The position numbers and the translations under genes were made by a program. A stretch of 64,000 bases of DNA, from NCBI RefSeq assembly GCF_026151205.1, contig NC_087076.1, positions 8,780,902 to 8,844,901 on the forward strand, read 5' to 3'. The notes under the pieces are model-generated. The model did not search any database and was not told the origin of the DNA. It saw nothing but the letters and a program-made list of their open reading frames with translations. Below are positions 29,941 through 61,000 of the stretch, piece by piece. The DNA comes from Bolinopsis microptera (Eukaryota; Ctenophora; Tentaculata; Lobata; Bolinopsidae). The stretch's first letter is position 1. Each line of letters opens with the position of its first letter.

Positions 29941-30080
29941 TCCAATGAGTGTGCTATTTTACCCTCCGTTTGATATCTTAGTTATTGATATTTGAATTCC
30001 GGAAAAACACCCATAGGGTTTCAATAGGGGTTTTGGTCTGGGTTCGTATTTGGGTTAGGGTGGCCGGTGGGGTACTTAGT

Positions 30081-30107
30081 GGGGGGGGGGGGGGGGGGGG
30101 GGGGGGG
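30081..30107 (+). repeat. Poly-G run (27 G)
   Basis: A longer version of the run at 18388-18407, at the equivalent place in the duplicated block. Confidence 0.95.
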
Positions 30108-30139
30108 TGGGGGCTGGGTAACAATTATGCCATATATAT

Positions 30140-30649
30140 ACAAAGTAAACCTTTGCTTCTGTATTCAGCATCCTAAGTCTGTAATTTATACCATCATCTG
30201 ATCTTCTTGAAACCATCTTCACTTCTCCGATACTGTAAACTTTTGAGAGATACAGTTTGAGAAAGTTCCCAGCCACTGCACCATCCTTGACACTGTACCA
30301 GGTATCGTAGTTTCCATCGTGTGCTTTGTTAGGAGTGTAGTTACTGTGATAGTTGTGCGATTCCGATCTCGTGATGGCCAATTGCAGGATTGATATTTCT
30401 GAAATCAACCACATATTAACATAGAAATGATATTTTTATTTTCAAAACCTATAATCATACTGATAGTCTGAAGATAATTATATCAGAAGATTACTGTCAT
30501 TTCATCTATAATAGAGTGTAATGTGTATTGTGATCTACATATGCATGATGAAAAGCTCACAGTTGCAAATAGCAAATAGCGAAATGCTTACCGGCTTGAA
30601 GAGGAATCAAGAAGATCGCAGTGAAATGTAACAACTTGTGAATACACAT
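30140..30649 (-). pseudogene. Truncated copy of the lectin-like gene
   Basis: The signal-peptide exon (30592-30649) is retained at the protein level, and most of exon 2 is retained with its acceptor (right edge 30398). After EAKVY the sequence jumps at about 30140 directly to sequence corresponding to about 18430, so the end of exon 2, the following intron and exon 3 are deleted. One codon is also missing (DDGINY against DDGYINY). Flanks on both sides match 18.2-18.4 and 19.3-19.5 kb, so this is a segmental duplicate with an internal deletion of about 400 bp. Confidence 0.8.
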
Positions 30650-32555: not shown

Positions 32556-33403
32556 AACTGTAAATACCTTAACAGATTGAAATCGAGTCACTTTAGTCAC
32601 TTTATCTTGTACACACAATGTGTCTGAATGTAAACAATGATGTGGAATATGATGTTGCTTATTGCTAAGTTACTTTAAAGTTAGCACAACGAGAGAGACT
32701 TTGCAGAGAAACGATCAGGGGCTTTCATGGCACCCCAGTAACTCGTACTCCGTTTTATAGATATATATTATAGCGTACGCTTAGCTGTATATATACAACA
32801 TAACACATTTGATACAATCACATACGACTAGGAACTCATGAACCGAATACCTGTCTAGGGATTTGGCTGCAGGACTGGAATCGGTCAGATATCAATCAAT
32901 CTTTTTTTTTTCAGACCGGAACCGAGTGGCAAACAGGGGAATTAAAATCTTACTAAAAAGTTACAAGATTTCTGACCACTTGCTGCTAAATCTCAGAAAA
33001 TTAAAAAATGTATCCTAACAGTTTTGAAATTTCCGATTTCGTGCACTGCCATTAGACCTTGTGATCCTATGCTAAGTACCCGGCATATAGACTTTTTAAC
33101 TGGATCAGATCTCGAGACATGCTTTTAGGTCTCAAGATCAGACTGTGAGGACCTGGAATGTTACCTGAAATCCCCTGATGAAGTTTTTTTAAATACAGAT
33201 TGCCTGAAAAATCTTGAAATTTCCAGTTGATATGCAGCTACGCAACCTAAACCAGACCGGAACCGGGTATTAAGCCATATAACCGGCCGGAACCGTACTC
33301 AATATTCATCCGGATATTCGGCAAAATTTAGTGAGGGAGCGGCCTACTGGTACGTTTCGCCACTAAGCGAAGGTAAAACAGTTTTTAATGAATATCTCTA
33401 AAA

Positions 33404-33960
33404 ATGAGCAATATATACCCTATGTTGCCTTATAGCTTGAAAATTAATATAAATATGGCGATTGCAGTTAGTTTGAGCCTTAAGATTAGATTGTTCATAG
33501 CGGCTTGTGAGTCAGTACTGCTCTACGGATCAGAATCCTGGACACTAACAAAGGCTCAAGAGAAAAGTTTGGACAGGACATACACAAAGATGCTGCGTAT
33601 GGTGCAGGGTGCTGGGTATCTCATGGAAGGACAAGGTCAGCAATATAACTTTGTATGGTAGCCTACCAAGGCTGTCAAACAAGTTACGAAGCAGGAGATT
33701 AAAAAAGGCGGGACACTGCATCAGATATCCTGAGCTACTTGCCAGTGATTTAGTCTTATGGGAACCTATGAATGGTAGAGCACAGCAAGGCCGACCAAGA
33801 CAAAGCTACTCGTCTATGTTACTGAAGGAAGTTGGGACAAACTCTAAAGAGGAACTGTGAACCCTGATGCGGGACAGGGATATACGGAGGGGGTTATCTG
33901 GCGTAGATCGGACTTAGTACGTCAACATAGTAGTAGTAGTAGTAGTTAGTAGTAGTAGTT
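33404..33960 (+). mobile_element. LINE reverse-transcriptase C-terminal remnant with (TAG)n tail
   Basis: Two overlapping frames encode LLYGSESWTLTKAQEKSLD...MLRMVQ and then LGISWKDKVSN...LPRLSNKLRSRRLKKAGHC...GRAQQGRPRQSY. This is the characteristic YGSE.W..T......R.....R......W.D and R.L...GH..R tail of non-LTR retrotransposon ORF2. A frameshift separates the two parts near 33610. A TAG trinucleotide run (33930-33960) follows the stop, like a LINE 3' end. Dead copy, 5'-truncated. Confidence 0.85.
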
Positions 33961-38544: not shown

Positions 38545-40567
38545 GCGGAAGCTACAGGAGGGAACGCGACACAGATGATACTAAAGCAAAACGGTGTTCT
38601 TGAAAAGAAAATCTCCGAATTAGAGGCAGAGAAAGAAAAGTTGGAACGAAACTTGAACGAATCGACAATGAAATACTCAGAAACTTCCGGCAGTTTAAAC
38701 AATGAATTAGAAGAGCTCAGAGCGAAAGTAGGAGACTTAGAGATGAAACTTAGAGAAAAAGAAAAAGAAGTTTCTTCGGCCAAATCGAGGTTAGCTTTGA
38801 GGCTTCTAATCAGAATAAGAAAAGCGTTTTATATATTATGTTCGACTCGATAAATAATCACAAAAATGGCGATTGATACGGAAAGATATTGATGTTTTTG
38901 CATACCAAATCTGAGATGAAATAATTTTAATATACTTTAATCAGACTGCACGAAGCAACAGCAGACTTGGAGACAGTAGAACAGAGAACAGAAAGAAAAT
39001 ACAAGGACTCTATCGGTTCATTAGAAAAGCATCACAAAGATAGGATAGATGGCTTAAATTCCCTTCTTGACGAGAAGGAGAGAATAATTCAAAACGAAAT
39101 TAAATCAGCCTCCCAAAGGTATCAAATAAGATTGTGGGCGCTTCCAAAAACATCTGTCACGAAAAAAAAAAATTAAAATTTGCCAAAAATCAGTTTCTTT
39201 TTGCATAATTTGATGGATAATTTTTGGAACGGGATGAAACTCCAGGATATGGTGTGCAATACCCTAACCTTTACTTTCTGCCCCTTTTTGTTTTGATTCA
39301 GGGCTAAATCTGGTGGGTAAAAGTGAAACAGACCAATCCACTTCAGGTGGCCTTAAAAAATATTTAATTCCATCCAAACTCCTAAAATATGATGGAGACT
39401 GAACAATAATTGATATAACTTCACAATCGCAAACTTGTAGATGTCACATGTTTGATCAAAATATTGAGTATATATACTCATTTGGTGGATATATCCACCA
39501 AATGAGAGCTTCTAGAAGATGACATTTTTTCCGTGACAGATTCGTTAACATAGTTTTTGAAAGTGCCCTTGTCTAATTTTGAGTATTAATGTTTTTTAAT
39601 CAGATCTTTTTTAACAGCGGCAATCTTAGAGGTAAAACGTTATGTAACCATACCCCATCATACATTTCCTTACATTGTAGTGCAAAAAAACTGACAAAAT
39701 GCCCCACAGACATAATTTTCACAGATTCACAGCATGAATTAACTTCACAATATGAATCAAACCTCCTTCCGAAGGTTAAAAGACAAAGAAGCTATGTTAG
39801 TGGAAGAAAACTCGTCCCAACTCCGGAAATGGGAGATGAGAGTAGAAGAAACAGAACAGAGATACGAAAACAGACTCCAATCTATGACGTCATCACATGA
39901 AAGTGAGCTGAGTTCACTTAGACAGAAACACGAGAGGGAGCTGGAGGAGCAGCAGAGACAGAGAAAAGATGAGCTGTGTGCGGTTTTGAGTGTTCAGCAG
40001 ACGACCACTAAGTTGAAGGAGTTGACTGATAAAGTAAATCTCAGTGCGGATGAGATTGGTACTCTCACTGCCAAGTTGGATATTAACAGGTTGGTTAATG
40101 GTTACTGGTCTTGGAAAAGTGGAAATATGAATTTGCAATTTTTACATTAGACTTTGCCTTGTGTTCGTACAACGAATATACGTCAACGCAATATTCTCCT
40201 CAGGACTTTTCCCGTCTTGATTCGCTTTTGAATCTTAATCAAGCTATCAAAAGTTCTTACATGGTCTTCGTTGTTATAACGGGCCGATAGTGAATGCATT
40301 CAAGCAAGCCCCTGAGCTCCTGCTAATCGTTTTATTTAAACAGATACTCATTACTCAATCTCAAAAGCAAGGAAAAATATTTTCTATCACCCACTGTTAT
40401 AGACCCAACTACTCCTCCATCTTCTCACTGTTTTCTCTCTTCTCAGGACAGTGACGTTGGAGGAGCGGGAGAAGGCTGCTAAAGTTATGAGCGAGTACCT
40501 ACACGATCTGAAGAGAGCTCTCGACAAACAGGAGATGGACATCAAGGATGAGAGATCTCGTCTTCAG
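38545..40567 (+). CDS. FBF1: FBF1, exons 8-11, start of the coiled-coil half
   Basis: Exons: 38545-38789, 38945-39118, 39775-40089, 40447-40567. They encode a long, charged heptad-rich helix: VLEKKISELEAEKEKLERNL, ELEELRAKVGDLEMKLREKE, EKHHKDRIDGLNSLLDEKER, LSSLRQKHERELEEQQRQR, MSEYLHDLKRALDKQEMDIK. This matches the C-terminal coiled coil of FBF1, which docks on transition fibres. Exon 11 ends DERSRLQ and continues directly into exon 12 (DVVGKMESHLREQ), the best-conserved FBF1 signature in the window. The exon 10 acceptor is uncertain: 39774 keeps frame, but an upstream segment (39725-39774) encodes a plausible coil (HELTSQYESNLL) in another phase and may be part of the exon if there is an indel. 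Confidence 0.88.
39477..39506. repeat. Perfect 30-bp palindrome
   Basis: CTCATTTGGTGGATA is followed immediately by its exact reverse complement, within FBF1 intron 9. Confidence 0.9.
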
Positions 40568-40640
40568 GTACTGTTGTTGTGTTTTTATATTTCGCCTTCA
40601 GGTACTATTCTTGTGTTTTTATATCTCCCCTTCAGGTACT
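40559..40640 (+). repeat. Three tandem 34-bp copies spanning the FBF1 exon 11 splice donor
   Basis: CTTCAGGTACT recurs with the donor GT at 40568, 40602 and 40636, and TTGTGTTTTTATAT lies between copies. The exon end and donor have thus been copied twice into the intron. Confidence 0.85.
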
Positions 40641-40921
40641 ATTCGGTTCTTCTGTTTTTTACTGCGGTGCTTCGAATGCGGCAAATGTAGTTTATATACC
40701 GCATGGACAGTGGACACACATGCTTATATAATATATTTTAAGTGCACAATGAGAAAGGCATGATCAGTAAGGCATGAGTAAGGCATGAACATAAAGTTAA
40801 TTAACAAAGATAAAACAAATGGTATAAAACTATCGGATATGAAGCATAAACCCCTGAATCATTAAACATTAACAATTAATATGGAAGTAGTGGTAGTGTA
40901 TTTAAATATAATGACAATGTT

Positions 40922-43900
40922 TTACTTAGCGTTCTTCTTCCTATTCGAAGACGCTATATTATCTAATTCGACAATATCAGCATTCATGTTTTCTGTTGCC
41001 AGTTCTGTAGGAGCCAACTCAGTCCCATAACCCACCACAGAAGCATCTATTTTTGGAGACTTAGTGATACCAACTTTGTTGGACATTTTAGTGCATAACC
41101 TTTGAAAATAGTCGATAATGCCACTGTTATCGTACAGTAGAGGGTTGATTACTGAGTTCAGAGGTAGGATTACTATAGAGAATATAGAATAATATTCAGT
41201 CGCATCGATCACTTCTAAATAGTGGAGAGTACAAACAGCTATGAAGGGGACCCAACATATGAAATCAGTGAGGATCATTAAGGTTATCTTCCGATTTAGT
41301 ACACTGGTTCTGCTAGACTGCTTCCCTGATGCTGTGGGTAACGTCTTCTTGGCAACTACGGATGATGTTGGATTGGTTCCTTTCGATACTCTTTTGGAAG
41401 ATTTGTCCACAGTGATATAGACTATTATGTATGATATTGTGATAGCTAAGAAGCACAGAGCGTTTTGTATGATAACAAACCAAGTGAACAATTTCTGAGG
41501 GTCATTTTCTCTTACGAAGAACTTGAATAGACAAACACCTGAATTTCCATAGAAGTTAACTTTGCTGCCAATCACTGGGCTGTTGTCAAACCTTGAAAAC
41601 ATGTCAGCGACCATATCCATAATCTGTCTCCAGCTGAGACTTTGTACTTTGAATTTACCGTAATGTTCTCTGAGAATGGCAATATGTTTATCTTTATCAT
41701 GAGATCCTGTGAGCATTGGGTTGTTAAAATAAGCTAGTCCATTGACAAAGTAATCTTCAAGTTGAGGAAGCAAAGGAATTAACGCAATAGTTGCAGCTGA
41801 GAGAATCAAACTGAAACAGACAAGTACTATCACTGTTTTTCCTTTCCAGGCGATGTCTCCCCTTAAACTTGAGTTCTTGATACAAAATACTCGAAGCATA
41901 CTTAGTAAGGTCATCGAGTAAAGGGAGAGTTGAGAACCAAATGTATTGAGAATTCCCAGGGCAGAGCAAGTGTCAGAAGTGAGCCATTTATAGAATTCTT
42001 GACAAAAGTTGGAGTCTCCATTCTGATAATTATATTTATGATCGATTATAGATATTGCAACAAGATACAAACCTACACACAGATCCCCTAATCCTACGAA
42101 GACAACCATAGCAAGGTTACTTATTTTAACCATGGATTTCTCCTGAAGTATTTGAAAAATCGTGGCTATTATCGCAATCAGGTTTAAGATAGTAGCCAAT
42201 ATGCCAAAACACCAAGAGCAGCCTACCAGAAACGACCCTTCTATAATTTCATGGTAATTCGAGCAGTCTTTTCCACATTCATCACTGTGGTCTGAACAGT
42301 CGAATACTCCGTCACAATATCTATTCCAAGGAATCCTCTCTCCTGTTTCACTTTCATTGCAAGAAAACTGATTTGAGCAGTCTTGTTCGTCGGACCAATC
42401 CCCACAGTCATTTGCAAGATTACAAACCTTATCGTAGCTAATACAAGCACCACTTTCACATTCAAAAAGATTTGGGTTTATAAAATGATATCCAACTTCC
42501 GGAGATCCTATTTTTTGGACCACAGTTAGGAATGTGTCCCCCCGCTTGGGAGTGGCAACTGTGTATATCCTGTCAGTGTCTACGATCTCGTTTATGCAAG
42601 AGTCATGACTGAGTGTTTTCAATTTACAGATCGTGTTCTTATCATCGCATTGGTTGTTACAAGCGGCCATCACATACGGATTTCCAAACAAAAATTTGCA
42701 GTTCAAGGTTTTGTTCGGAAGTATAGCCATATACTGTTTCACGCCGAAGATGAGATCGCTTTTTGATGTAGTGGTGACATTGATGTCCTTACATGCGTGG
42801 TCAAGAAACGCCATGTTTTCCATCCCTGGAATACAGTAGCTAAGTCTCGGCATTTGTTGTAAACTAGAGATAGAATACAATTTTGTTTGGAGGATGTCTT
42901 GGTTTCGAGCAACTCTACAGACCCGTTCCTCACTTCCACACGATGGAATTCTGTCACAGAGCTTTTTGTAATTAACTTTTTCTCTGGTGCCATTTGAACA
43001 AAAGTAGAACTTTTCGTTTAAGCAATTGTCTGATCTGACTGAGCTCCAGTCGTTTTCGTCGCCATGACAGTAGGTGTAATTTTTTGTATGATTTTCCCAA
43101 AATTCTGTGTTCTCATCTTTTCCATCTTCACAGTCCTTAACACCGTCTCCTACCCATTTTGAAGGAATCGACCAGTTTATTCCCCCAACCCGTCTGGTAC
43201 AATTCACTGTTTCCATGTCATTACAAATGTCATCAATCTCGTCTCTTCTAGTTAAAGGACAATCTGTATGATTATCACACATTTTGTGTTTGTGAACTAT
43301 GCAGCCATAACCTAGATTGTGACATTTAGCGTCTATAGAGTCAGTGCAAAAGGGTTTCAAACTTCTCGTGTCGTTGATAAGAGTATTACTGTTTTTCCTG
43401 ATTGATATATTAATCCTTTGCCTCGTTTTGCAATTTACCAAGTATTTTGACAAACTTATTGATTTTGAACCGTTTATTTTCAAGCATTTTAGTCCAATTT
43501 TTGCTTTGTTAGGACAATTAATCTGATCAGAAAAGTCATTGCAGACCATCTTAACATCGGAGTTCCAAAAGTTGGGAACCGAACACTTGTGTATTGGTAC
43601 AAGTGGACGCTTTTGGAGTCTGAACAATCTTGGCTTTGTATTGACGTTGAAAAAAGTACAGGATTCTTCACTTTCTTCTTCACAATTGAGTTCGTCCGCT
43701 TCGTTGTCACATTGCGTGATATTGTCACAAACCATTCTAGGCTCAATATATACTTCTTTTATAATCGTTTTGAAAGTTTTGTTGCAAAACATACCGATTG
43801 GATTTTCACTTTCACACCGATTATTGCCTAAGAGTGATTCATCAGCACAGTTTGAACAATCGCATTTATCGTCACATAAAACATTTTCTGGGACGAATTC

Positions 43901-44826
43901 CTTTTTCCATGGTGAGTATACTCTGCAGTCAAACTCAAAGTCACATATGCTTTCGTCTATTTCTGTGTTCGGACAATCCTGCTTTTCATTGCAAGTTACG
44001 CGCCTATTAACTATGCCGTTCCACAGACTGTTAGTTTTACATGTAAAGTCTCCACAAAGCATGTCTTCCCGATTCTTCTGGATGTCATTTTCGCACCTCT
44101 GATGGCCACAAATCTGATAAAATCCGGTATCTTTTTCACAGATCTTATCAAACATAATTTTATTTTCTCCTTCCGAACAATCAAGTTCTTTTTCAGGTAG
44201 GTGTTTTACTTGATATTGACCGTCATTCTGACTGCATTTGAAATAAGTAAGGTTGCTAGTATCCGTACATTTAAGTTTCAAGAACCCTCTCAATGCCACT
44301 ATCTTGCAAGTCCCACCCGGCTCTATCTCTGAAATCAAAGATGATGATGTTGGGTTTTTATCGCAGATGAATTTTTCGTGACCTTGCCAATTATAGTTTT
44401 TATCTGCTTTACCGATGTGGATTCTGGTGGGGAGGTGAAGCATATGATAGTGATTCTGGGGTTTGATTGCTCTAAAATAGTGAAGATGATAAGTTAATTG
44501 ACATGTCACGTGTTCAAAAATATGCCTCACCAGAATACACATCGTAACTTGTTTTTTCTTGTCAAAATAATCGTTATTGTGTCCTAAAAATGTTCTTGGA
44601 ATCTATATTTGATATTATGTGTGACTAATGAAAATTACTTATCGAATATTATATGCCTATTGGTAGATCAATCGATAGAGATAGAGACATAACCCATCCA
44701 GTACTCACTATCGGGTGGATTTTCTTCCTCCATTTTCTCCATATCTTGTACATCAGGATTAGTTCCTGGGCTGGATCTAGACTTTGTCACCAGTAGACTT
44801 ATTATGAATATCCACTTCCAGTTCAT
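40922..44826 (-). CDS. LDLa-repeat 7TM receptor 1 (GRL101/RXFP-like), intact
   Basis: A cell-surface GPCR with a very large Cys-rich ectodomain; ligand unknown. Exon 1 (44709-44826) encodes the signal peptide MNWKWIFIISLLVTKSRS and an acidic stretch. Exon 2 (40922-44328) starts after TTGATTTCAG. Lengths sum to 3525 bases, giving 1174 residues. The open frame extends upstream of 44328, but that part is intron. The ectodomain has degenerate LDLa-like units (CNEKQDCPNTEIDESIC, CDDKCDCSNCADESLLG) and two clear LDLa repeats before TM1 (CNLANDCGDWSDEQDC, CDGVFDCSDHSDEC). The 7TM part (about 41100-42235) has the family marks VNGLAYF, KVNFYGNSGVCLFKFF, DFICWVPFIAVC, SIVILPLNSVINPLLYD; there is no DRY. 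It is related to the leucine-rich-repeat/LDLa receptors (snail GRL101, relaxin receptors), but no LRRs are seen. First of three tandem copies in FBF1 intron 11. Confidence 0.88.
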
Positions 44827-45110
44827 AGTCAAAGAGATTGACCGATCTGTCTAGAGATACTGATATGTATGTTAGAAAGTATGCCAAAATAAACAAGTAA
44901 AATTATTTGTTTGATTTTTATTGGGAGATGATCCTTGTAGCTGTGGCTGATACGAAAATTGATTTTCGTGCCAGTGCAGCTATTACTTGTAATAACCATG
45001 ATAACGATATAATCAGCGAACATATAACAACGACCTTAAAAACGATCGGCTACCCTAAATATCCCGGATGTACGGTGAACGTGTGCATTGTCATGAAGTT
45101 TAATTTTTTC
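44827..45110 (-). promoter_or_regulatory. Upstream region conserved with receptor 2
   Basis: Sequence 5' of the receptor 1 start closely matches that 5' of receptor 2 (51870-52135), including GATTTTTATTGGGAGATGAT and TATTACTTGTAATAACCATG. Probably promoter plus 5' UTR. Whether conservation reflects function or simply recent duplication cannot be told by eye. Confidence 0.45.
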
Positions 45111-45198
45111 TAGTTCTACAAATGAAAATTAGATTTTAAACTCAAAACATTTATTAAAGTCGAACACCGAAGCGTTGGGCCCCAAGATGTTGTGCAAT

Positions 45199-45579
45199 GT
45201 ACCCTGACCCTGACCCTGACTGTGACCCTGACCCTGACCCTGACCCTGACCCTGACCCTGACCCTGACCCTGACCCTGACCCTGACCCTGACCCTGACCC
45301 TGACCCTGACCCTGACCCTGACCCTGACCCTGACCCTGACCCTGACCCTGACCCTGACCCTGACCCTGACCCTGACCCTGACCCTGACCCTGACCCTGAC
45401 CCTGACCCTGACCCTGACCCTGACCCTGACCCTGACCCTGACCCTGACCCTGACCCTGACCCTGACCCTGACCCTGACCCTGACCCTGACCCTGACCCTG
45501 ACCCTGACCCTGACCCTGACCCTGACCCTGACCCTGACCCTGACCCTGACCCTGACCCTGACCCTGACCCTGACCCTGG
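45199..45579. repeat. (CCCTGA)n / (TCAGGG)n hexanucleotide array, about 63 units
   Basis: Almost perfect hexamer repeat, with one variant (CTGTGACC) near the left end. On the minus strand the unit is TCAGGG, one base from the metazoan telomere repeat TTAGGG. The long open frames through it (Pro-Asp, Gly-Gln, Thr-Leu, Gly-Ser) are artefacts of the 6-bp period. Confidence 0.97.
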
Positions 45580-47157
45580 TACACTAACCCAAACCTGAAT
45601 CATACTCTGCCGCTTCTTGGCACGAGATCAAAGCTGGGCATATTGCTCTAGGGCACGATGCTCTGGAGCACTTGGTGGTCACTTGGGCAACTGACGAAGT
45701 CCTGCAGCTGAACGATGGTAAACTTTTTATTGTTGAAATGATAAAGCATATTAAACACTATACAGCAGAGAATAACGGTACAAAACAACGGTACCTGGAA
45801 ATCACACAAAGAGAATGAGGGAAGAGGGTACCCATGCTCGACCCGAGTAAGCATGAACATAACAATGCCTGATTTGCATTAAGTTTCTAGGTTAGGTCAT
45901 TGTATTTGTGTAGTTAAGATAGAACGTTGAGCTCTAACTTTAAGGAGTGTTGCTCTCACTTGAGAAGATTAAACACAATACAATGCTCTCAGAGTTTACA
46001 TACAAAAAGAGCTCCAGTGCGTATAACATCTAACAGAGTTATAAAGGGACCCCAGCAGATTAAGGTACTAAAGGAGCCTAATTACCACGGCAGTGCTGAG
46101 TGCACTGTTCTACGATATAATTGCATGTACATTATCGGTCATTTTCTTATGAATTACAGACCAGAAGAAGTATTGTACACATCTTTTCACGTGTACACTG
46201 TACTGGTGTTAGACAAGTTACTGGTCTCTAGCTCGCTTCTTCTCGTGCTGGGAGAGCGAAGTGAAACGAATACGTGATAATATTAATAACCATTTAAAAT
46301 GAAGTTGGACTATACAACAGTATAAATGTGTTGACTTGTCTACACAGTTCGTAAAATAACTGAGAGCGGAATTTATTGTACAATTACTGAATCATTTCGT
46401 GGTCTTGTGCCCACTACAATCCATTGTGATCCAGGGTTTGAGGGTTAATCGAGCAGGTGTTATTGTTCCCAAATACTCAGGACCATTGCATTACTATTAG
46501 TCCATATCTAAGTCACCTGCTAAAATAAGAGTGTGGCTAATGATCAATCCTAACATTCAGCGTGTGAAGCACAACAGATTTCAGGAATTTTTACTTTTAG
46601 GAGCTATTCTATATTAATACAAATATATTGTGCTCCGGGGCTTCTCGAACAGGTGTGATTTCAAAGTTTTGCTGTTCTCATATAGTCAGGACCAGGAGTT
46701 CCTATCGAAGTCAGGATGATCAATTTCAGATTTGGGTAATTTTTAAATTTAGGAACTATAGCATAAGCTCGCGAATTTATGAATTATGATCGCTGGCGTT
46801 TACATTTTGGTATTCATCTCTTATATTATATATTAACCAACTCAATATGTAATTATTGGTGTGAATCTGAGCAAATCTATATCTTGGGACTTGAATACAG
46901 GAGAGCATTGATAATTCCTTTTTTTCCTCTAGAAAATTCTGTTTTCTCCTAAACCTTCACTCGTGCCAAATCCATACATAGAACAACACTGAAGAGTAGA
47001 AATCGACCAATTTCAAGGCATATCTAATAATAAAATAATAACTAACAATTAAAAATTCAAATGCATTTTAAGAATACAATCTTCCTATTACATAAATAGA
47101 TTTGTAAATAGTAAATATCACTTGTCCGAAAGTTTCAACCTTTAGGAAAGATTTTTC
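45580..47157. other. Intergenic stretch between receptors 1 and 2
   Basis: No gene seen. Parts (about 46600-46660) resemble sequence at 52520-52580 downstream of the next unit (TATTGTGCTC-GGGGCTTCT), showing that the tandem duplication included flanking DNA. Confidence 0.55.
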
Positions 47158-50100
47158 TTAAGCTTCTTTCTTGCTAGTAGACGTCATATCATCTAATTCA
47201 ACAATATCAGCATTTAATTTTTGTGTTGGAACCTCTGTAATACCCAGTTGAGTTCCCTGACTCACCACAGTAGCGTCTCTTTGCGAAGATCTAGTGTTGA
47301 TTACATAGTTAGATAGCTTAATGGTACAAGACTTTCGAACATAGTCGATAATGCCACTGTTATCGTACAGTAGAGGGTTTATTACTGAATTCAGAGGTAG
47401 GATTACTATAGAGAATATGGAATAATAATCAGTCGCATCTATCGCCTCTAAATAGTGGAGAGTACAGACAGCTATGAAGGGGACCCAACAAAGGAAATCA
47501 GTGATGACCATTAAAGTTATCTTCCGGTTGAGAGTGCTGTTTATTTTCGAATGTTTTACTTGAGATACGGATGCTGTGGATGCTTTCCTCATGGTTGCTT
47601 GAGAAACTCTTCTTGTTGATTCCTCCACAGTGATATAGACTATTATGTATGATATTGTGATGGCGAAGAAGCACAGAGCGTTTTGTATGATAACAAACCA
47701 AGTGTACAATTTTTGAGGGTCATTTTCTCTTACGAAGAACTTGAACAGACAAACACCTGAATTTCCATAGAAGTTAACTTTGCTGCCAATAACTGGGCTG
47801 TTGTTAAACCTTGAAAACATGTCAGCGACCATATTCATGATCTGTGTCCAGCTGAGACTTTGTATTTTGAATTTACCGTAATGTTCTCTAAGAATGGCAA
47901 TGTGTTTGTATTTATTGTGGGATCCTATAAGCATTGGGTTGTCGAAATAAGCTAGTCCATTGACAAAGTAATCTTCAAGTTGGGGAAGCAAAGGAATGAA
48001 CGCAATAGTTGCAGCAACTAAAACCATACTCAAACAGACAAGTATTATCACTGTTTTTCCTTTCCGAGTCATACTTCCTCTTAGGCTTGAGGTCTTGAGA
48101 CAGAATACGCGAAGAATACTCAGTAAGGTCATCGAGTAAAGGGAGAGTTGAGAACCAAATGTATTGAGAATTCCCAGGGCAGAGCAAGCATCAGAAGTGA
48201 GCCATTTGTAGTAATCTTGACAGAATGTAGAGTCCCCATTCTGGTATTGATAGTTGACTATTGATATTCCGACAAGATACAAACCTACACACAGATCCCC
48301 TAATCCTATGAAGACAACCATAGCAAGGTTACTTATCTTGACCAAGGAATCTTCTCGAAATATCTGGAAAGAAGTTGATATTACAGTTATCAGATTTAGA
48401 AAAGTGGCTAGTAAACCCAGTGTCCAAGAACAACCTACCAAAAACGTTCCGTCTATGACTTCTTTAGAATTCCGGCAGCCATCCCCACACTCATCGCTGT
48501 AATCAGCGCAATCGAATATTCCATCACAATGCTTGTTCCAAGGAATCCTGTCTTCTGTTCCATTACAAGAAAACTGATTTGAGCAGTCAAGTTCGTCGGA
48601 CCAGTCTCCACAGTCGTTTGCAAGATTACAAACTTTATCAAAACTAATGCATGTCCCACTTGTACATTCGAACAATTGCTGAGTTTTGAAATGAGATCCT
48701 ACGTTTTGGACCAAAGTAAGATATGGTTTTCCATGTTTTGGAGTTGCCATTGAATAGACTTTGTTTTTCTCTTCAATCTCTCCTGCACATGAGTCATGTT
48801 TTAGTTTTGTCAACTTACAAGATGTTTCGTTGTCAGCACAATTATCATTACAAGTGGCCAATAAATATTGGGCTCCAAACAAGAAGTTGCAGTTCATACT
48901 TTTGTTGGGGAGAATTGCCACACCCTGTATTACGCCAAAAACTTTATCTCTGTTGTGAGAAGTGGTGATGTTGATTTCTTTACAGCCATTGTCAAGAAAT
49001 GCCTGATTCTCCAATCCTTGGTGACAGTAGCTAATTCGTGTTTTTTTATAGTTCCGCGAGCCGAAATTAGTTTTTGTTTGGAGGATGTCTTGGTTTCGGG
49101 CAACTCTACAGACCTGTTCCTCGCTTCCACAAGATGAAATTCTGTCACACAGCTTTATGTAATTCACTTTTTCTTTGGTACTATTCGAACAGAAATAAAA
49201 CTTTTCGTTTGAGCAGTTGTCTGATCTGACTGAGCTCCAGTCACCTTTGTCACCACAGACGGTGTAATTTTCTCTGTGTTTCCTCCAAAATTCCTTGTCT
49301 TCATCTTTTCCATCTTCACAGTCCTTAACACCTGTCTCCTACCCATTTTGAAGGAATCGACCATTTTATTCCCCCAACCCGTCTGGTACAATTCACTGTT
49401 TCCATGTCATTACAAATGTCATCAATCTCGTCTCTTCTAGTTAAAGGACAATCTGTATGATTATCACACATTTTGTGTTTGTGAACTATGCAGCCATAAC
49501 CTAGATTGTGACATTTAGCGTCTATAGAGTCAGTGCAAAAGGGTTTCAAACTTCTCGTGTCGTTGATAAGAGTATTACTGTTTTTCCTGATTGATATTTT
49601 AATCCTTTGCCGCGTTTTGCAATCTACCAAGTATTTTGACAAACTTATTGATTTTGAACCGTTTCTTTTCAAACATTTTAGTCCAATTTTTGCTTTGTTA
49701 GGACAATTCATCTGATCAGAAAAGTCATTGCAGACCATCTTAACATCGGAGTTCCGAAATTTAGGAACCGAACACTTTTGCATTGGTGCAAGTGGACGCT
49801 TTAGGAGTACCCTATCTTTAACTACCGGTCCGAATAATCCTGGCTTTGTATAGACATTGTAAAAACTACAGGATTCCACACTTTCTTCTTCGCAATTAAG
49901 TTCGTCCGCTCCATTGTCACAGTGCATGATTTTGTCACAAATCATTCTAGGCTCAATATATACTTCTTTTATAATCGTTTTAGACTCATAAACCCATGAA
50001 GATACTTTGAAAGATTTGCTGCAAAACATACCGATCGGATTTTCACTTTCACACCGATTATTGCCTAAGAGTGATTCATCAGCACAGTTAGAACAATCGC

Positions 50101-51869
50101 ATTTATCGTCACATAAAACACTTTCTGGGACGAATTCCTTCTTCCTTGGTGAGTATACTCTGCAGTCAAAGTCGCACATACTTTCATCTATTACAGTGTT
50201 CGGACAATCTTGCTTTTCATTGCAAGTTACACGCTCATTATCAATGGGGTTCCACAGATTTTCGGTTTTACATGTAAAGTCTCCACAAAGCATGCCTTCC
50301 CGATCCTTCTGGATGTCATTTTCGCACCTCTGATGGCCACAAATCTGATAAAACCCGGTATCTTTTTCACAGACCTTATCGAACATAATCATATTTTCTC
50401 CTTCCGAACAATCAAATTCTTTTTCAGGTAGGTGTTTAACTTGATATTGACCGTTATCCTGACTGCATTTAAAATAAGTAAGGTTGTTAGTATCCGTACA
50501 TTTCAGTTTCAAGAAACCTCTCAATGCCACTATCTTGCAAGTCCCACCTGGCTCTATCTCTGAAATTAAAGATGATGATGCTGGATTTTTATAGCAGATA
50601 ACGTGACGTGACACTTGCCAATTATTAGTTTTTATCCAATTTACAGATGTGGATTCTGGTGGGGAGGTGAAGCGCATGACAGTGATTCTGGGTTTTGATT
50701 CATCAATAGTGCAAGGTGATTAGTAAATAATAAATATGCCTCACCTCCCGATAGAAATAATATCCACATCCAAAAATTTTGTCTTGTCAAAATAATCCTA
50801 ATTGTGTACTTTCCAATCTATATTTACCCTTATCTTATGTGTGCATAATATATATAATATGTGAGTGATAAAAATCAATTAATTAATCCATTCAGTACTC
50901 ACTATCGGGTGTATTTCCCTCCTCCTTTTCCTCCTTATCTTGTCCATCTGTAGGATTCTCAGTAAAATCCTCAGTAAAATCCGTGTTCTTCTCTTCTTTA
51001 TCTGATCTGCCTTCATCGCTATCAGTTGCACTTTCATCGTTATTAACATCATTTGCATTGTCGTTATCTGAAACCATTTATGTAACACCATGGAATAGGA
51101 ACTAGAGATATGAACTAGAGATAGGAAATAGAGATAGGAACTAGAGATAGGAACTAGAGATAGGAACTAGAGATAGGAACTAGAGATAAAAACTAGAGAT
51201 AGGAACTAGAGATAGGAACTAGAGATAGGAACTAAAGATAGGAACTAGAGATAGGAACTAGAGATAGGAACTAGAGAATCAGAGATAGGAACTAGAGATA
51301 GGAACTAGAGATAGGAACTGGAGATAGGAACTAGAGATAGGAACTAGAGATAGGAACTAGAGATATGAACTAGAGATAGGAACTAGAGATAGGAACTAGA
51401 CATAGGAACTAGGGATAGGAACTAGAGATAGGAACTAGAGATAGGAACTAGAGATAGGAACTAGAGATAGGAACTAGAGATAGGAACTGGAGATAGGAAC
51501 TAGAGATAGGAACTAGAGATAGGAACTAGAGATATGAACTAGAGATAGGAACTAGAGATAGGAACTAGACATAGGAACTAGAGATAGGAACTAGAGATAG
51601 GAACTAGAGATAGGAACTAGAGATATGGACTAGAGATAGGAACTAGATAACGAAGCCCTTCCCATGTGTCATCTATATTTGATAGAGTTGACACGGAGTA
51701 CACTACTACAGATCATGCACCAGAGAATTGATCGAATTCATTTTTTAAATCTTGGCAAATATATTTATTATTTGATACCTGTATCCTTATTTGGATTAGT
51801 TCCCGGGCTGAACCAGGATCTAGACTTTGTCACCATTAGACTTAGTATGAATATCCACTTCCAGTTCAT
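47158..51869 (-). CDS. LDLa-repeat 7TM receptor 2, with one single-base frameshift
   Basis: Exons: 51779-51869 (signal peptide MNWKWIFILSLMVTKSRS), 50903-51067 (an extra acidic exon absent from receptor 1: DNDNANDVNNDESATDSDEG), 47158-50559. The main exon parallels receptor 1 throughout, with LDLa repeats CNLANDCGDWSDELDC and CDGIFDCADYSDEC, then the 7TM domain with CLFKFFVREND, DFLCWVPFIAVC and NSVINPLLYD. At about 49333 an extra T (plus strand) sits where receptor 1 has CACCGTCTCC; it converts WVGDGVKDC to WVGDRC-stop. Exon lengths sum to 3658, one more than a multiple of three. Ignoring that base, the product would be 1218 residues. An 0.5-kb minisatellite occupies intron 1. Confidence 0.84.
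51098..51645 (+). repeat. 13-bp minisatellite (GGAACTAGAGATA)n
   Basis: About 42 tandem copies with scattered variants (GATATGAACT, GACATAGG, AACTGGAG) and one short interruption near 51280. Higher-order pattern: a block at about 51300-51390 recurs at 51480-51570. It lies wholly within intron 1 of receptor 2. There are no unique spacers, so it is not a CRISPR-like array. Confidence 0.95.
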
Positions 51870-53186
51870 AGTCAAAGAGTTTGACTGATCTGTCTATAAA
51901 TACTTATAAAGCATGTTAGAAAGCATACCAAAATAAACGATTACAAATATTTGTATGATTTTTATTGGGAGATGATCGTAGTTGAAGTTCAGCGATACGG
52001 TTAATAAAACAAAGCAGGAAATTCACGTTAGAAATTGATGTCAGCTATTACTTGTAATAACCATGATAATGACATAATCAGCAAACACATAACGACGACC
52101 TCAAAAACGACCGTTTACCATAAATAACTCGGATGTACGTTGTACGTGCTCATCGATTGAATGCCAAGTCGAGACTTTAGCTTTAAATCTCCATAGATCA
52201 TACTGTACGTTATAAGTATGTGCAGACAGGTTAAATGGCATGCGCAAGCCTTGAACCCCCGGTGTGAGGCAACACTGTTATCGGCTATAATGGCATTGTT
52301 CTCGGTGTGTACCATCTACAGTTGCTCCTGACGTCATTAATTGGATCTCACTTCGTAGAATCATACAATTATCATGGGATTGAATGCTAGCATTCATTAT
52401 TTGTAGGAAACAGCCGAAATTATCATTACTAGTAGTTCCTTAGTTCATAAGAGCGCGGTTAAGGATCAACTCAAACACTCACTGTAAATAATGAAGCATA
52501 ACAGATTTGAGGCATTTTTAAATTTCAGGAGCTATATAATACTTATTGATACAAATGTATTGTGCTCTGAGGCTTCTGGAACAGGTGTAATTTCAAAGTA
52601 AAGCTGTTCTCATACACTCAGGACCATGTTGAGCAATGCTTTAGTTTAAAGAATAATTTGGTATTCATCTCTTAAACTAAAACTTATGTTATTATTGGTG
52701 TGAAGCTGAACATATGAAGATATCAGTATCTTAGAACTCAACTTGGTTACAAGATCATTGACAATTCCTAGGTTTTTCTTTTAGAAAACTCTGGTTTCTC
52801 CTAAACCTCCACACATGCCAACTTCATCATAAACACAGGAGAGTGGAGGTAGACCAATTTCAAGGTTTATAAAATTAAAATAACAACTAAACATGTATAT
52901 TCAACTGTGATATTTATAATTATAGGAGATTCTATACACAATATTATATTCAATTCTTCATTTGCCGGGTTCTTTTCATAACAGAAGTAATTTCCATAAC
53001 CCTATTCTTGGATATCAAGAATGAATAGAGATTAGATAGAATTTCAATGCTATGAGGCAGTAAAACTACAATTTTAATAATAATTCTTGATCTTAACATT
53101 TTGAACATCTTACTAAAGTACTAATACTATAGAACTCATTTTTCCCTCAGACATTCCAATTAAAATTATATGAAATCATAATTATA
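51870..53186. other. 5' flank of receptor 2 and intergenic DNA to the Helitron
   Basis: 51870-52135 is conserved with the receptor 1 upstream region; a TATTTATAG motif about 30 bases upstream of the ATG is a candidate TATA element. 52480-52800 is related to 46560-46960. No gene was seen. Confidence 0.5.
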
Positions 53187-53665
<479 letters not shown>

Positions 53666-53774
53666 TGACATAGTGTACAGATTTGGCGTTACAATGACCG
53701 ATATAATTCTTCAAAATTAACTAAAAACATGGTTAAATTGAAAATTCAATTAAAAACAACTGTGAAGTCAGGAC

Positions 53775-56700
53775 CTAGAAGGCAGTCTCTGCCACGATGT
53801 CTTTACTAGCGTCAGGTCTGATATTTTCTAGTTCCACCGGTTCAGGGTTGATGGCTTGTGCGGGAGTTCGGCTTTTAGTCGTACATGATTCTGGATCCGC
53901 TCGGCTGTTCATGTTGGAAGTTTTATTGAAAATACCAACCCTTCTGCAAATTATCAGACACTGTTCAGAAATATAATCTAGGACTCCACTAGTGTCATAT
54001 AACAGAGGGTTGATGACAGAATTCAAAGGGAGAATTATTATTGAGAATAGAGAATACAACTTAGTCGCATCCATCACTTCAAGATAGTGAAGACTGCAGA
54101 CAACTATGAAAGGGACCCAGCAAAGGAAATCAGTCAGAACCATCAAAGTTATCTTTCGGTTTAGTGCACTGTTCTTTTTTGGTTTTTTCACTCGAGATTT
54201 TGACTTATTTGCTGTGCTGCCTTGTGATGCTTTTCTTGAATTTTCTACTTTCATATGAATTAACATATAAGATATGCTAATAATGAGGAAACATATGGCA
54301 TTTTGGATGATGACGAACCAACTGAAATTCTTTTGAGGATCGTTCTTCCGTACGAAGAACTTGAACAGACAAACGCCAGAGTTTCCATAAAAGTTAACTT
54401 TGCTGCCAATCACGGGACTATTGTCAAATCTAGTGAACATATCAGCTACTAACTCCCTGATCTGATTCCAGCTGAGACTTTTTACTTTGAATTTACCATA
54501 ATGTTCTCTGAGAATGGCTATGTGTTTGTTTTTATCATAAGATCCTGTGAACATTGGATTTTTGAAATAAGCAAGTCCATTGACAAAGTAATCTTCAAGT
54601 TGGGGAAGCAAAGGAATGAACGCAATAGTTGCAGCAACTAAAACCATACTGGAACAGACAAGTACTATCACTGTTTTTCCTTTCCAAGTCATACTTCCTC
54701 TCAGGCTTGAGTTCTTGAGACAGAATACTCGAAGAATACTCAGTAAGGTCATCGAGTAAAGGGAGAGTTGGGAACCAAATGTATTGAGAATTCCCAGGGC
54801 AGAGCAAGCATCAGAAGTGAGCCATTTGTAGTAATCTTGACAGAATGTAGAGTCCCCATGCTGGTATTGATAGTTGACTATTGATATTCCGACAAGATAC
54901 AAACCTACACACAGATCCCCTAATCCAATGAAGACAACCATAGCAAGGTTACTTATCTTGACCAAAGAATCTTCTCGAAATATCTGGACAAACGTGGTAG
55001 TTATAGTTATGAGGTTTAGTATCGTGGCAAGTAAACCAAGGATCCAGCAGCAGCCACTCAGAAACAATCCCTCCACAACTTCATAAGGATGTCTGCAGTC
55101 ATTTCCACATTCGTCGCTGTGGTCCTCACAATCAAACTTCCCGTCACAATATCTACTCCAGGGTATACGGTCTTCTGTTATTCCAATGCAAGAAAATTGA
55201 TTTGAGCAGTTATTTTCGTCGGACCAATCCCCACAATCGTTTGCAAGATTACAAATTTTATCCAAAGTTATACATGATCCACTATCACATTCAAACAACT
55301 GCAGTGCAGCATAAGTTGATTCTAATGATCCTATTTTTTGGACCAAGGAAAGGTAAGGATTTCCACTCTTTGGAGTGGCCACCGAACGAATTTCATTTTT
55401 ACAAGAATCGTGTTTCAATTCTTTCAACCTGCAAGATGTTGCTAAGTTATTGCAAATGCCATGGCACGATGCCTCCACATAAGGCACTCCGTACAAAAAT
55501 CGACAGTCAATCGTTTTGTTTGGAACAACAGTGATCCTTTGTTCCAGAACGCCGAAAACCTGGTCACTTTCGATTTTTCTACATCCATTTACAAGAACTG
55601 CCAGATTATGTAATCCAGAGATGCAATAACCTGGCCAAGTTGTTTGCAAACTTCCTGTTCCGGAGGGTTCAGTCCAAAAGATGTCTTGATTTCGGGCAAC
55701 TCTACAGACCCGTTCCTCACTTCCACAGGATGGAATTCTGTCACAGAGAGTTTTGTAATCTAGCATTTCCCCAGTGCTGTTTGAACAGAAGTAAAACTTT
55801 TCGTTTGAGCAGTTGTCTGATCTGACTGAGCTCCAGTCATTTTCGTCGCCATGACAGTAGGTGTAATTTGTTGTATGATTTTCCCAAAATTCTGTGTTTT
55901 CATCTAATCCATCTGAACAATCTTTAACTCCATCATTTATCCAATCGCTAGGAATGAACCACTCTACATTTCCTACCCTTCTGATACATTTCTCTTCTTC
56001 CATTTCTTTACAAATGTCATCAATCTCGTCATATTTCGTGTCCGGGCAATCTATGCGATTATCACACATTTTGTGTTTATGAATATAACAGCCATGATCA
56101 AGATTACCACCATTATAAAGATCTCGACACTCTGCATCTATGAGTCATTGCAAAACCCAGACCTGATCTTACGGTTGAATAATGATGTATATTTATCTAT
56201 CATATAAGCAGAACGAAGTTCGCAATCTACTAGATATTGCGATAAATTCGCTAACTTAGTACCCCCTTTGACTTTTATATAGCATTCTACAGCATTCTTT
56301 GATTCATCGGGACAGTTGATCTGATCTGAGAAGTCGCTGCAAACCGGCTTATACTTACCTCTCGAAAAGTTTGGGACCGAACACTTTTGGCGAGATTGCA
56401 ATGGGCGTTTTTTTACCACTACCTTCCTTTTTGATCTATATCGATAATTACAAGATTCCTTACTATGAGACATACAATTCTCTTCGTCAGCTCCGTTGTT
56501 ACAGTGTATTTTATCATCGCAAATCATGTGTGGTTCTATATAAACTTCTTTTGTTACACTTACAGTCTTCATTCTTTCTTTAAACGTCTTTTCACAAAAC
56601 ATGCCTATTCGATTTTCACTTTTGCAACGCTTATTATTGTTTCTTGATAACGCCTCATCAGCACAGTTGGAACAGTCGCACACGTCGTCGCATACCAAGC

Positions 56701-57582
56701 GATGTGGGACCGATTCATATTCAACAGTATCATGCAGTTTGCAGTCAAAATCTGACGTAATGCTGCAGCTTTCTTCATCAATTGATGTGTTCAAACAATC
56801 CTCTTGATCATTGCAAGTTATGTCAAAGTTGTCAACGGGGTGCGAATCACCTATGCTTTTGTTGTAGTATTCCACGAGTATGTTGCGGTTTTTTCTACTA
56901 CACACATAATCTCCGCAAAGCATGCCATTCCAGCCATCTTGAACGTCATTATCATAGCCAATGTCATACATCTGCGTATGACCACAAATTTGATAGAATC
57001 CAGGATCTGAGTCACAGATCGTGTCAAATAAAACTATACCATCAATGCTGGATACTGAATAACTTCCTTCACCCTGAGTACATTTGAAGTACGTTTGGTT
57101 GTTTGAATCTTTACATTTTAATTTTAGGAATTGTCCTACTGGAACAACCTTGCAGGTTCCAGGATGGATTGCATGATCTGAAAATAATTTAGTATTATAA
57201 ATAATAATATGTATATCACCTTTTTTCAGTTTCAGCACAGTAAGAAGTGTTCTACACAAATCTACTTGAAAAACAGCTCAGGCCACCGATAGAAAAAAAA
57301 ACGTTTTACTTTCATAACAAATTGAAAATCAATACAAAATGTATGTAAATTTACATTAAAAATTGCTGACTGCATCAGCTAGTACGCACAAGTTGTTGTA
57401 GCACTGCTGGTAGTAGTATAATTGTAGTACTCATGGTCATCCTGGTTGGTAGAGTTTGTAGCAGGAGAGGTTGTAGAGGTTGTAGCAGGAGAGGTTGTTG
57501 CAGGAGACGTGTTCACTCTTGCCAATGTCAGTAGAGTGTATAAGAGCAGACGCTTCCAATGCACGGTAATGTTCTGGTCCAT
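53775..57582 (-). CDS. LDLa-repeat 7TM receptor 3, with one single-base frameshift
   Basis: Exon 1 (57390-57582) encodes a signal peptide (HWKRLLLYTLLTLARVNT) and a Ser/Thr/Pro-rich, probably O-glycosylated stretch (TSPATTSPATTSTTSPAT) unlike the first exons of receptors 1 and 2. Exon 2 (53775-57177) encodes the Cys-rich ectodomain and 7TM region, with LDLa repeats CNLANDCGDWSDENNC and CDGKFDCEDHSDEC, and DFLCWVPFIVVC and NSVINPLLYD. The ectodomain is more diverged than between copies 1 and 2; the 7TM part is strongly conserved. At about 56141 one base is missing relative to the other copies, so CNDS runs into TAG; the next frame continues DAEC. Exon lengths sum to 3596, one base short of a multiple of three. 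The repaired length would be 1198 residues. Confidence 0.84.
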
Positions 57583-58000
57583 TTCCTTGAACAGTTCAAT
57601 TTAACATTCAACAAAGGTACAAACTTGGCTAAATTAGAAATGTATTTATCCAAAAAATAAGTGCGAAAACATCATAATTAAACATTTATATTCAAGTTCA
57701 ATTATGTTCCTATAGCACATAATATTGTCAATTGAAGACTGCTATAATAGATTGATTGATATTATTACGAATATTCAATACTCATGTCTCATAAGTAAGC
57801 ACAGTGAATCGTGGGGATAAAATCATTTAGTGCTAACTGCTGACTAGACGTTTTTTCGATTGACCTCTAAGGTATCTATGATTGATTAAACTAATACTAT
57901 AAATGATAACCAAGATATAATAATACATATCCTGCCAGATATCAAGTATGTTACATGTTCTAACAAAATTGAAAATGTCTAACTTATCCCACTTTATCAG
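57583..58000. other. 5' flank of receptor 3 and end of FBF1 intron 11
   Basis: AT-rich, no gene seen. It does not show the upstream block shared by receptors 1 and 2. Confidence 0.5.
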
Positions 58001-61000
58001 GACGTGGTGGGGAAGATGGAGTCACACCTTCGAGAACAGACTCGACAGTCAAATGCAGCACAAGATAGGATCATTGCTGACGAGGCCAGATTAAGGAGTC
58101 TTCAGGTAATTGTAATTGAAACTATTTTATCAAATTCAAAAAATCTTTAATAACGATGAGCCCCAGCTCATGATCACACTGTGTGCGTTATGTAAAGAAG
58201 CACGCTAGAGCTGCACGCCATATATAATGTCCAGGTTCATTATAATATATAATGTAGTACTTCTAGTTCTAGGCAATGAGCTTGGTTGTGTCCCACAACC
58301 AAGCTCATTGCCTAGAAGTATTACATTACAGCTTGGTTCATGGGCATATGGCGTGTAGCTCTATAGTCTATACACCAAAACACAAAAAAAAGCAACCTAA
58401 AACGAGGTGCTCAGTGCCGCACTCATTATGGTGCTCTGTGTGCTGTGGCTTGCAGCAATATTGACACTCACTGTCATTATAAACTAACTTGTCCACACTC
58501 ATGACAATACAAAATGCATACCTAATGATAGACTCTCATTAAAATCCTCGAATTCGCACTTCGCAGGGATAATCACACATCTGACGAAACGTTTAGTAAA
58601 CGTTTTGTATATACAGTCTGGAACGTTCAGTCGTCCCCAGTCCTTATTGAATATATTGTTAGCAGTTTTCTCATTTACATTTCTCTCATTAGCTTTTCAC
58701 AAAACTCAGGCATCTTGGGAAGCGGACAAAGCAGAGGAAGAGAGGAAATTAGAGAAAGGTCGGGAGCATTTAGAGAGATCTAAGAGTTCCCTCCTCTCCG
58801 AACAAAGGGAACAAATGGAGCTTTTGTATAAGGAGAGAAAGGACATTTCCAGGGAGAAAAGTAGGTTAGCTACTGCATCACAAAAAGCTACGGAGAAGGT
58901 AGCTCAAGGTGGGTCACTAGGCACGTTTTCTAACCCGCTATAAGTATAACCTGTATCTGTTTTCAGGATCATTTGTCTTGATAAGTTTTTAAATGCTAAT
59001 TTGGAGTACCGCACCTGCGCCCATGCATCAATTTTGTAAAAGTTAAATGTTGAGAAAGATATATGATCTGAGACCTCTAATTTTATCAATATTATTGCGC
59101 CTCTATTTCACACGGCTCAATCCTTAAAACTATAACAGGTGCTGTGAAGCAACTCGATATCGAAGCACAAGCCCAGTCTATATTTGATCAAACGAAGAGG
59201 AAAGCCACCAAGATAACCGCAGAAATGGAGAGACTTGACAACGAGAAGAAAACTTACTTTAGAGATAGGGATGATTTAGATGCTGAGAAGGAAAGGTTAG
59301 CTCCTGCTCAAATTGGGCCATCATTGCACGGGTGGAACCTTTTTAATGAGTAACGATAGAAAATAACCTTATCATATTATGTATACATGGTTACTAGTTA
59401 TCAACATTCGCTTATTGACCTTCGCAAGTGAATAAATATGTACAAGGTCGTAATACGGTTCTCTGAACTAGATAACAAAAGATGAAAAAGTTGTACGCTT
59501 GTTAACTTTAAAATCTGGAGATCTTGTCATTTCAGTTACAAGATTTTTAAATTGTGTTTTTTGTGGACACTACAATAATATACTCCAAAGGTTGACAAAG
59601 TTAGCAGAGAAGTTGTCAGCCCGGGTCTCAGAGACGGAACACTACGGAGAGGCCCTGAATAAAGCTCGAACAGAATGCTGTGTTGTACAACAACAGCTAG
59701 CCAAGCTGGAAACCGAACTAAGGATGAGGGAAGACGAGATTAAGATTAGAGAGAAATCTTTGAAAGTAAGACTACTGTTCTTCTTAATTAAATAAAATCT
59801 TTACTGCCCTCATGAAAAAAAATTCCATTTATCAATGACGAAACCGAGTAAGAAACAAACATGACATACATGATACACAGCATTGAACAATAACAGCATG
59901 TATATTACTATCAGAGAGCTAAAAGAGAGCTAAATCCTAAAAGAGAGCTAAAAATCATGTTGCAGGACGCCACCAGCTCGATCACAGCTGAGCGAGACCT
60001 CCTGAAACTGGACCGACAAAGTCTGAACGCGGAGGGAATACAGTGTCCCGCCTGTCAGATGTACCGTCCCAGAACCAGACAAATATCAGGCAGTCCCCTA
60101 AGGTAACAGTCAGCTAATCACCATGTTCCCAAGTTATAAGTGCCAGTTTCAGGAGCAGCATTACCATACATCTCAGACTACCCCATTGTTCTCCTGGAGC
60201 AACAGACCTTCCTGGTATCTTACCACTTACCAGTGTGCTAATAAGAACACTGTATTTCGGTATTACACTTTGTGACGGCACTAAAGGGAACATTAGGGGA
60301 ACAATCATGGTCTAGAGATGCACCTCAACAGTAACCTCTGTAACCCAGATATTATCATATTCATTTGATTACATGGTCGCCTTTCATTCATGGAGTTCGC
60401 GTAGATCAGAGGTGAGAGGTGGTTCGAGAGTTCAACAAATTAATGTTAGCTCGCACTGTTATCATATCACCTCATGGTCAATTGGTCATGTTAATTATCA
60501 GATCTGGTAATCTGTACATCAAAATTTTAATACTCTGAGCAGACTCTACTGCAAGTGTAACTCACAATGAAGAAGGTTTGTTAAACTTAAGGGGGGGGGG
60601 GGGGGGGGGGGGTTCACCCTGATTTTTTGTGGAACATGGTTTCGAGATAGCAGTTGACCAACAAACTAGGACCGCGACCGGTGACCAAACTTTTGAGGGG
60701 GTCCCGGACCCCAATTACCGCCAAACGGTGCCCGCGGGGCAGCCACGCCCATATTTGGTCCAAATTAGGCCCAATTTAGCCAAATACCCTGGACATGCCC
60801 AAAATCCAGATTTTAGGTGCTCTACTTGTAGCTAGTGGTCCCTTGAACTCGTACATGAATTTTCATCAAATATCAATATTTTTGAGTGAAACCAACTTTA
60901 TATGAAAGGTAAGCCTATATTACACATTCTCTATATGATTATCAGCGCTGTATCTAACTAACTGTGTATTCTGTGTTCAAATAATCGCAAAATGTGAACA

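Follow-up and report, generated by a model that had tools for sequence, protein, structure and literature searches.

In the window that we analysed (the whole 64-kb stretch of DNA given above), one intron of FBF1 holds three tandem receptor genes on the opposite strand, which combine LDLa modules with a 7TM region. The history to which we give a probability of roughly 80% is that a reversed LDLa-7TM gene came to lie in the FBF1 intron, was duplicated in tandem and underwent gene conversion between its copies, with the nesting itself being probably neutral.

The FBF1 gene and its long intron

We modelled FBF1 with eight plus-strand exons and exact splice junctions, which gives a stop-free protein of 497 residues (Table 1). 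This protein matches the Pfam family FBF1 (PF21007) with 137.7 bits (E 6.1e-40, cut-off 45) over positions 11-421 of the 524 in the profile, and has the conserved C-terminal coiled-coil by which FBF1 proteins are recognised. The host intron, whose originally predicted boundaries turned out to be exact to the base, measures 17,433 bp, whereas the model's six other introns range from 155 to 656 bp.

The claim that the exons on both sides join at the signature DERSRLQ|DVVGKMES also holds. The four exons before the host intron cover PF21007 positions 11-203 (52.7 bits) and the four after it positions 204-421 (71.2 bits), both above the curated cut-off; the profile runs on from 203 to 204 across the intron and not a single position is lost. 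Taken alone, the exon after the intron matches positions 204-238 (E 1.8e-5, under the curated cut-off), and the in-frame stretch 40442-40567, slightly wider than the exon before the intron, gives a weak match to positions 164-203 (E 0.0087). Because the profile positions are contiguous on both sides, the join is sound at the sequence level, and FBF1 most likely still splices across the nested array. A version of the joined protein with a stretch of another frame before RLKDKEAML scored 100.2 bits, against 137.7 for the splice-exact model, and was dropped.

The donor of the exon before the host intron lies within a 34-bp tandem repeat (2.6 copies, 40555-40644), and the string CTTCAG|GTACT therefore occurs there three times in a row. 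The repeated strings are possible alternative donors of FBF1, which would shift the frame.

Table 1. Coordinates of FBF1, of the nested receptor genes and of the repeats in the host intron
Feature	Positions	Strand	Remarks
FBF1 exons upstream of host intron	38545-38789, 38945-39118, 39775-40089	+	In-frame splice model, stop-free
FBF1 exon before host intron (exon 11 of the original prediction)	40447-40567	+	Splice model; donor CAG|GTACTG
FBF1 host intron	40568-58000	+	17,433 bp, phase 0; splice model
FBF1 exon after host intron (exon 12 of the original prediction)	58001-58105	+	Acceptor ATCAG|GAC
FBF1 exons downstream of host intron	58710-58908, 59139-59295, 59591-59765	+	Splice model
Receptor A exon 1	44709-44826	-	Leader (signal-peptide-like by eye), phase-1 donor; splice sites
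Receptor A exon 2	40922-44328	-	LDLa-bearing ectodomain, 7TM, stop; frame unbroken
Receptor B exon 1	51779-51869	-	Leader; splice sites
Receptor B extra exon	50903-51067	-	165 bp, phase 1 at both ends; splice sites only
Receptor B exon 2	47158-50559	-	Single frame break near 49,33x
Receptor C exon 1	57390-57582	-	Leader; splice sites
Receptor C exon 2	53775-57177	-	Single frame break near 56,14x
Putative conversion tract A-B	B 49365-49597 = A 43176-43408	-	233-bp identical run
Putative conversion tract B-C	B 48110-48345 = C 54730-54965	-	236-bp block, three differences
ACCCTG x63 tandem array	45201-45578		FBF1 host intron
13-bp unit x43 tandem array	51095-51647		Inferred intron of receptor B
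GA x55 tandem array	53345-53454		FBF1 host intron

Three receptor genes on the opposite strand

Receptors A, B and C lie head to tail on the minus strand, antisense to FBF1. Their coding parts fall wholly inside the host intron, as in opposite nested genes. Each gene is built from a leader exon, a phase-1 intron and one very long exon; the splice choices follow from GT/AG sites, phase and homology, and the leaders were judged signal-peptide-like by eye. On this basis, the expectation of three minus-strand paralogues, each with its own leader exon, was borne out. Together their start-to-stop spans take up 71% of the intron, and a tblastn search of the window with exon 2 of receptor A (E up to 0.01) returned A, B and C only. 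The intron also contains three tandem arrays of more than 100 bp (Table 1).

The coding frame of A is open throughout (44826-40922). The large exons of B and C each consist of two overlapping frames, with a switch at the positions given in Table 1, and we refer to the N-terminal pieces as B1 and C1 and to the C-terminal ones as B2 and C2. Only A is unbroken in this assembly, so that the description of all three genes as complete has to be given up for B and C, which have one frame break each.

Affinities of the receptors

Pfam scans placed LDLa (PF00057) above its cut-off in A and in both C-terminal pieces, B2 and C2, the latter two also matching 7tm_1; A had no 7tm_1 match even at E 5, and B1 and C1 matched no Pfam family at E 0.01. 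When solved structures were searched, the best 7TM-bearing chain was RXFP1 for both B2 (whole-chain E 2.5e-7) and C2 (1e-9), and the best match of A was LHCGR (2.6e-8, with RXFP1 at 1e-4). The receptors have a long, cysteine-rich ectodomain that ends in LDLa modules, and a 7TM region nearest to the LGR/relaxin type. Scanned singly, six of nine fragments of A matched LDLa at E values up to 0.12 and three did not; one exceeded the cut-off of 24.1 bits (44.8), two fell below it (23.9 and 22.2) and three were weaker. No Pfam family of leucine-rich repeats (LRRs) was found in the five receptor pieces at E 0.01, nor in A at E 5, a result that does not extend to degenerate LRRs, because the filters of HMMER discard most matches above about 0.1.

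With a 7TM region like that of LGR/relaxin receptors, at least one LDL-A module in the ectodomain and no detected LRRs (degenerate ones being outside the scope of the search), the predicted architecture is that of the LDLRR-GPCRs of Ciona. According to the passages of PMC2396169 that describe them, these 14 receptors have LDL-A modules, single or in tandem, and a transmembrane region like that of the relaxin/INSL3 receptors, lack LRRs and represent a lineage-specific expansion. Nesting in FBF1 and gene conversion do not figure in those passages, and the receptors of the window differ further in that most of their LDLa-like modules fall below the Pfam cut-off. Within the collection of papers searched, the term LDLRR-GPCR led to no source beyond PMC2396169.

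GRL101 and the type C2 LGRs also combine multiple LDLa modules with a 7TM region like that of type C LGRs (PMC4079206 and PMC11863921), but they are classed as LRR receptors (PMC11863921). RXFP1 and RXFP2, the type C1 LGRs (PMC11863921), resemble our receptors in their ectodomain LDLa, and RXFP1 is the top 7TM hit among solved structures for both B and C; the receptors of the window differ in having a long cysteine-rich ectodomain in place of a detected LRR domain. The LRR-containing ectodomain of the GRL101/RXFP group (type C LGRs) was not detected here, within a search that left degenerate LRRs aside. The C-terminal piece of receptor B gave 14 pattern matches in bacterial and archaeal contigs and 5 in viral contigs, none of which was confirmed; these searches are uninformative on animals.

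Uneven divergence and probable gene conversion

Identity among the copies is very uneven along the genes, and the closest partner of a copy switches from one part of the gene to another. The identical run of 233 bases between A and B was reached in 0 of 2000 shuffles. The 236-bp block of B and C is made of identical runs of 38, 66, 88 and 41 bases, and a run of 88 was likewise reached in none of 2000. The stretches adjoining these near-identical tracts are strongly diverged. The longest identical run between A and C, of 37 bases, was less extreme (4 of 2000 shuffles). At 4-fold degenerate sites, the longest runs were 43 for A-B (reached in 1 of 5000 shuffles), 29 for B-C (0 of 5000, with the 67-codon middle piece of B left out) and 17 for A-C (21 of 5000). 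Because the partner changes along the gene, this mosaic points to repeated gene conversion between neighbouring copies. The case for conversion rests on the shuffle and 4-fold-site tests, both begun at exon 2.

Over seven pairs of pieces, dN/dS was 0.14-0.41, values that serve as a rough guide: dS was saturated for A-C1 (1.88) and B1-C1 (3.15), the row of A started 92 codons ahead of exon 2, those of B1 and C1 also held upstream sequence, so that A-B1, A-C1 and B1-C1 include some non-coding columns, two codons of B1 were misaligned, and a sliding window that crossed a frame break drew on a single piece. This range suggests that the protein function of the receptors has been under selection for most of their history. 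Blocks common to A and B were also found by blastn upstream of the start codons, with none in C that matched A or B; this difference suggests a more recent split of A and B from each other.

Origin of the frame breaks

Since B and C both have a broken frame, these two genes might be decaying pseudogenes and A the sole working copy, and another minus-strand gene of the window, the MFS transporter described below, also has one in-frame stop. We hold this to be possible, though we would sooner bet against it. There is just one break per 3.4-kb exon, the pieces flanking it are stop-free, and the comparison of B with C gives a low dN/dS both before and after the breaks (0.245 for B2-C2; 0.143 for B1-C1, where dS is saturated). 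The break in B lies within a recently homogenised, A-like tract and so should not be old: it is younger than the tract, or else an error of sequence or assembly. The apparent breaks of B and C would be either recent, as argued for B, or sequencing errors. A reading of raw sequence can label genes as complete although two out of three carry frame breaks.

Collapse, swapping or misjoining of similar receptor copies during assembly could produce mosaic tracts, frame breaks or even the nesting. It would fit with the position of the break of B in a near-A tract, which over about 300 bp departs from A by a single substitution and a single 1-base difference in length, and with the presence of the three tandem arrays in the intron. 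We nevertheless consider such an artefact unlikely. The window is free of N, and mosaic tracts turn up in two pairs, A-B and B-C. Per window of 100 columns, identity among the copies ranges from 40 to 100%, with many values below 90%, so that long reads should be able to tell them apart. Finally, the two halves of FBF1 flank the array in the correct order, orientation and phase.

Relation between the receptors and FBF1

It is very improbable, in our assessment, that transcription of the receptors controls FBF1, by interference or antisense pairing, and was selected for a role in ciliated cells. The array does come near both ends of the intron, with 354 bp from the stop of A to the upstream FBF1 exon and 418 bp from the start codon of C to the downstream one; the first AATAAA or ATTAAA past the stop of A is at 40336, beyond the FBF1 exon, and in C. 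elegans induction of a host by the gene nested in it is on record (PMC12274878). However, these motifs occur at 1.70 per kb on the receptor strand, a density that makes their absence from 354 bp unremarkable, and poly(A) signals were for this reason dropped as evidence of antisense overlap. In the surveys cited in PMC3786989 and PMC4394429, moreover, most hosts and their nested genes showed no correlation or had unrelated functions. A link of the receptors to cilia would be speculation. We give next to no credence to the intron as a sheltered nursery, in which frequent conversion would shuffle segments of the ectodomain and 7TM region, transcription of A and C would enter FBF1 exons, and a fast-diversifying set of chemosensory or recognition receptors would be tied to the expression of a ciliary gene.

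Other frames in the window

An intronless frame of an MFS transporter (22178-23797, minus strand) carries an in-frame TAG at 22877-22879; its first part matches Pfam MFS_1 and its second part no family. It has the candidate FBF1 exons of 15-17 kb on one side and the FBF1 exons at 38 kb on the other, so that it is possibly one more nested gene in antisense orientation. The open frames 18770-19120 and 30076-30435, both on the minus strand, are near-identical by eye for most of their length, which suggests a duplicated gene or a mobile segment; the first has an F5/8 type C match below the cut-off. The window also includes an open, intronless frame of 334 aa for a rhodopsin-family receptor (11939-12943, minus strand; Pfam 7tm_1), and open frames at 33392-33860 (plus strand) that look to us like part of a non-LTR reverse transcriptase.

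Discussion

As far as the sequence goes, the FBF1/receptor nest is real and a further case of known kinds of nesting. The original prediction called the growth of genes inside an intron unusual, which is too strong in view of NF1, of MOB2 with KRTAP5 (PMC4394429) and of TipE in CG18675 (PMC3240667). About 6% of Drosophila genes are nested, often in the opposite direction, and this is seen as largely neutral (PMC3786989, passage on nested genes); C. elegans has 567 opposite nested pairs (PMC12274878, likewise). One intron of NF1 contains three antisense coding genes, OMG, EVI2A and EVI2B, as the FBF1 intron does, and MOB2 is host to an array of KRTAP5 paralogues; in contrast to the present case, the NF1 trio is not described as one family in the corresponding passage of PMC4394429, and both host genes are far longer. 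Among the matches listed in our search of the literature on FBF1, nested gene and intron, none reported by title a gene nested in FBF1.

C21orf59 is the cilia gene CFAP298. It is the human orthologue of CG18675, whose last intron houses the TipE family (PMC3240667). In that cluster, as in ours, a conserved gene unrelated to the paralogues carries several of them in a single intron, but they are sodium-channel subunits of insects and have an unrelated gene among them (PMC3240667). The same paper cites GMC oxidoreductases inside Flo-2.

In the history that we favour, a single LDLa-7TM gene, LGR/relaxin-receptor-like and with no detectable LRRs, would have landed reversed in the FBF1 intron, and tandem duplication there would have brought the intron to 17.4 kb. 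The copies would be independent minus-strand genes for cysteine-rich, LDLa-bearing 7TM receptors with a leader, kept mostly by purifying selection and patched by the gene conversion to which the mosaic points, and the nesting itself would probably be neutral, without a dedicated link to cilia. The outlying length of the intron and the visible conversion tracts make the locus a clear case of a receptor family grown in a host intron, one that can be used to ask whether nesting affects gene conversion, the decay of copies and the splicing of the host.
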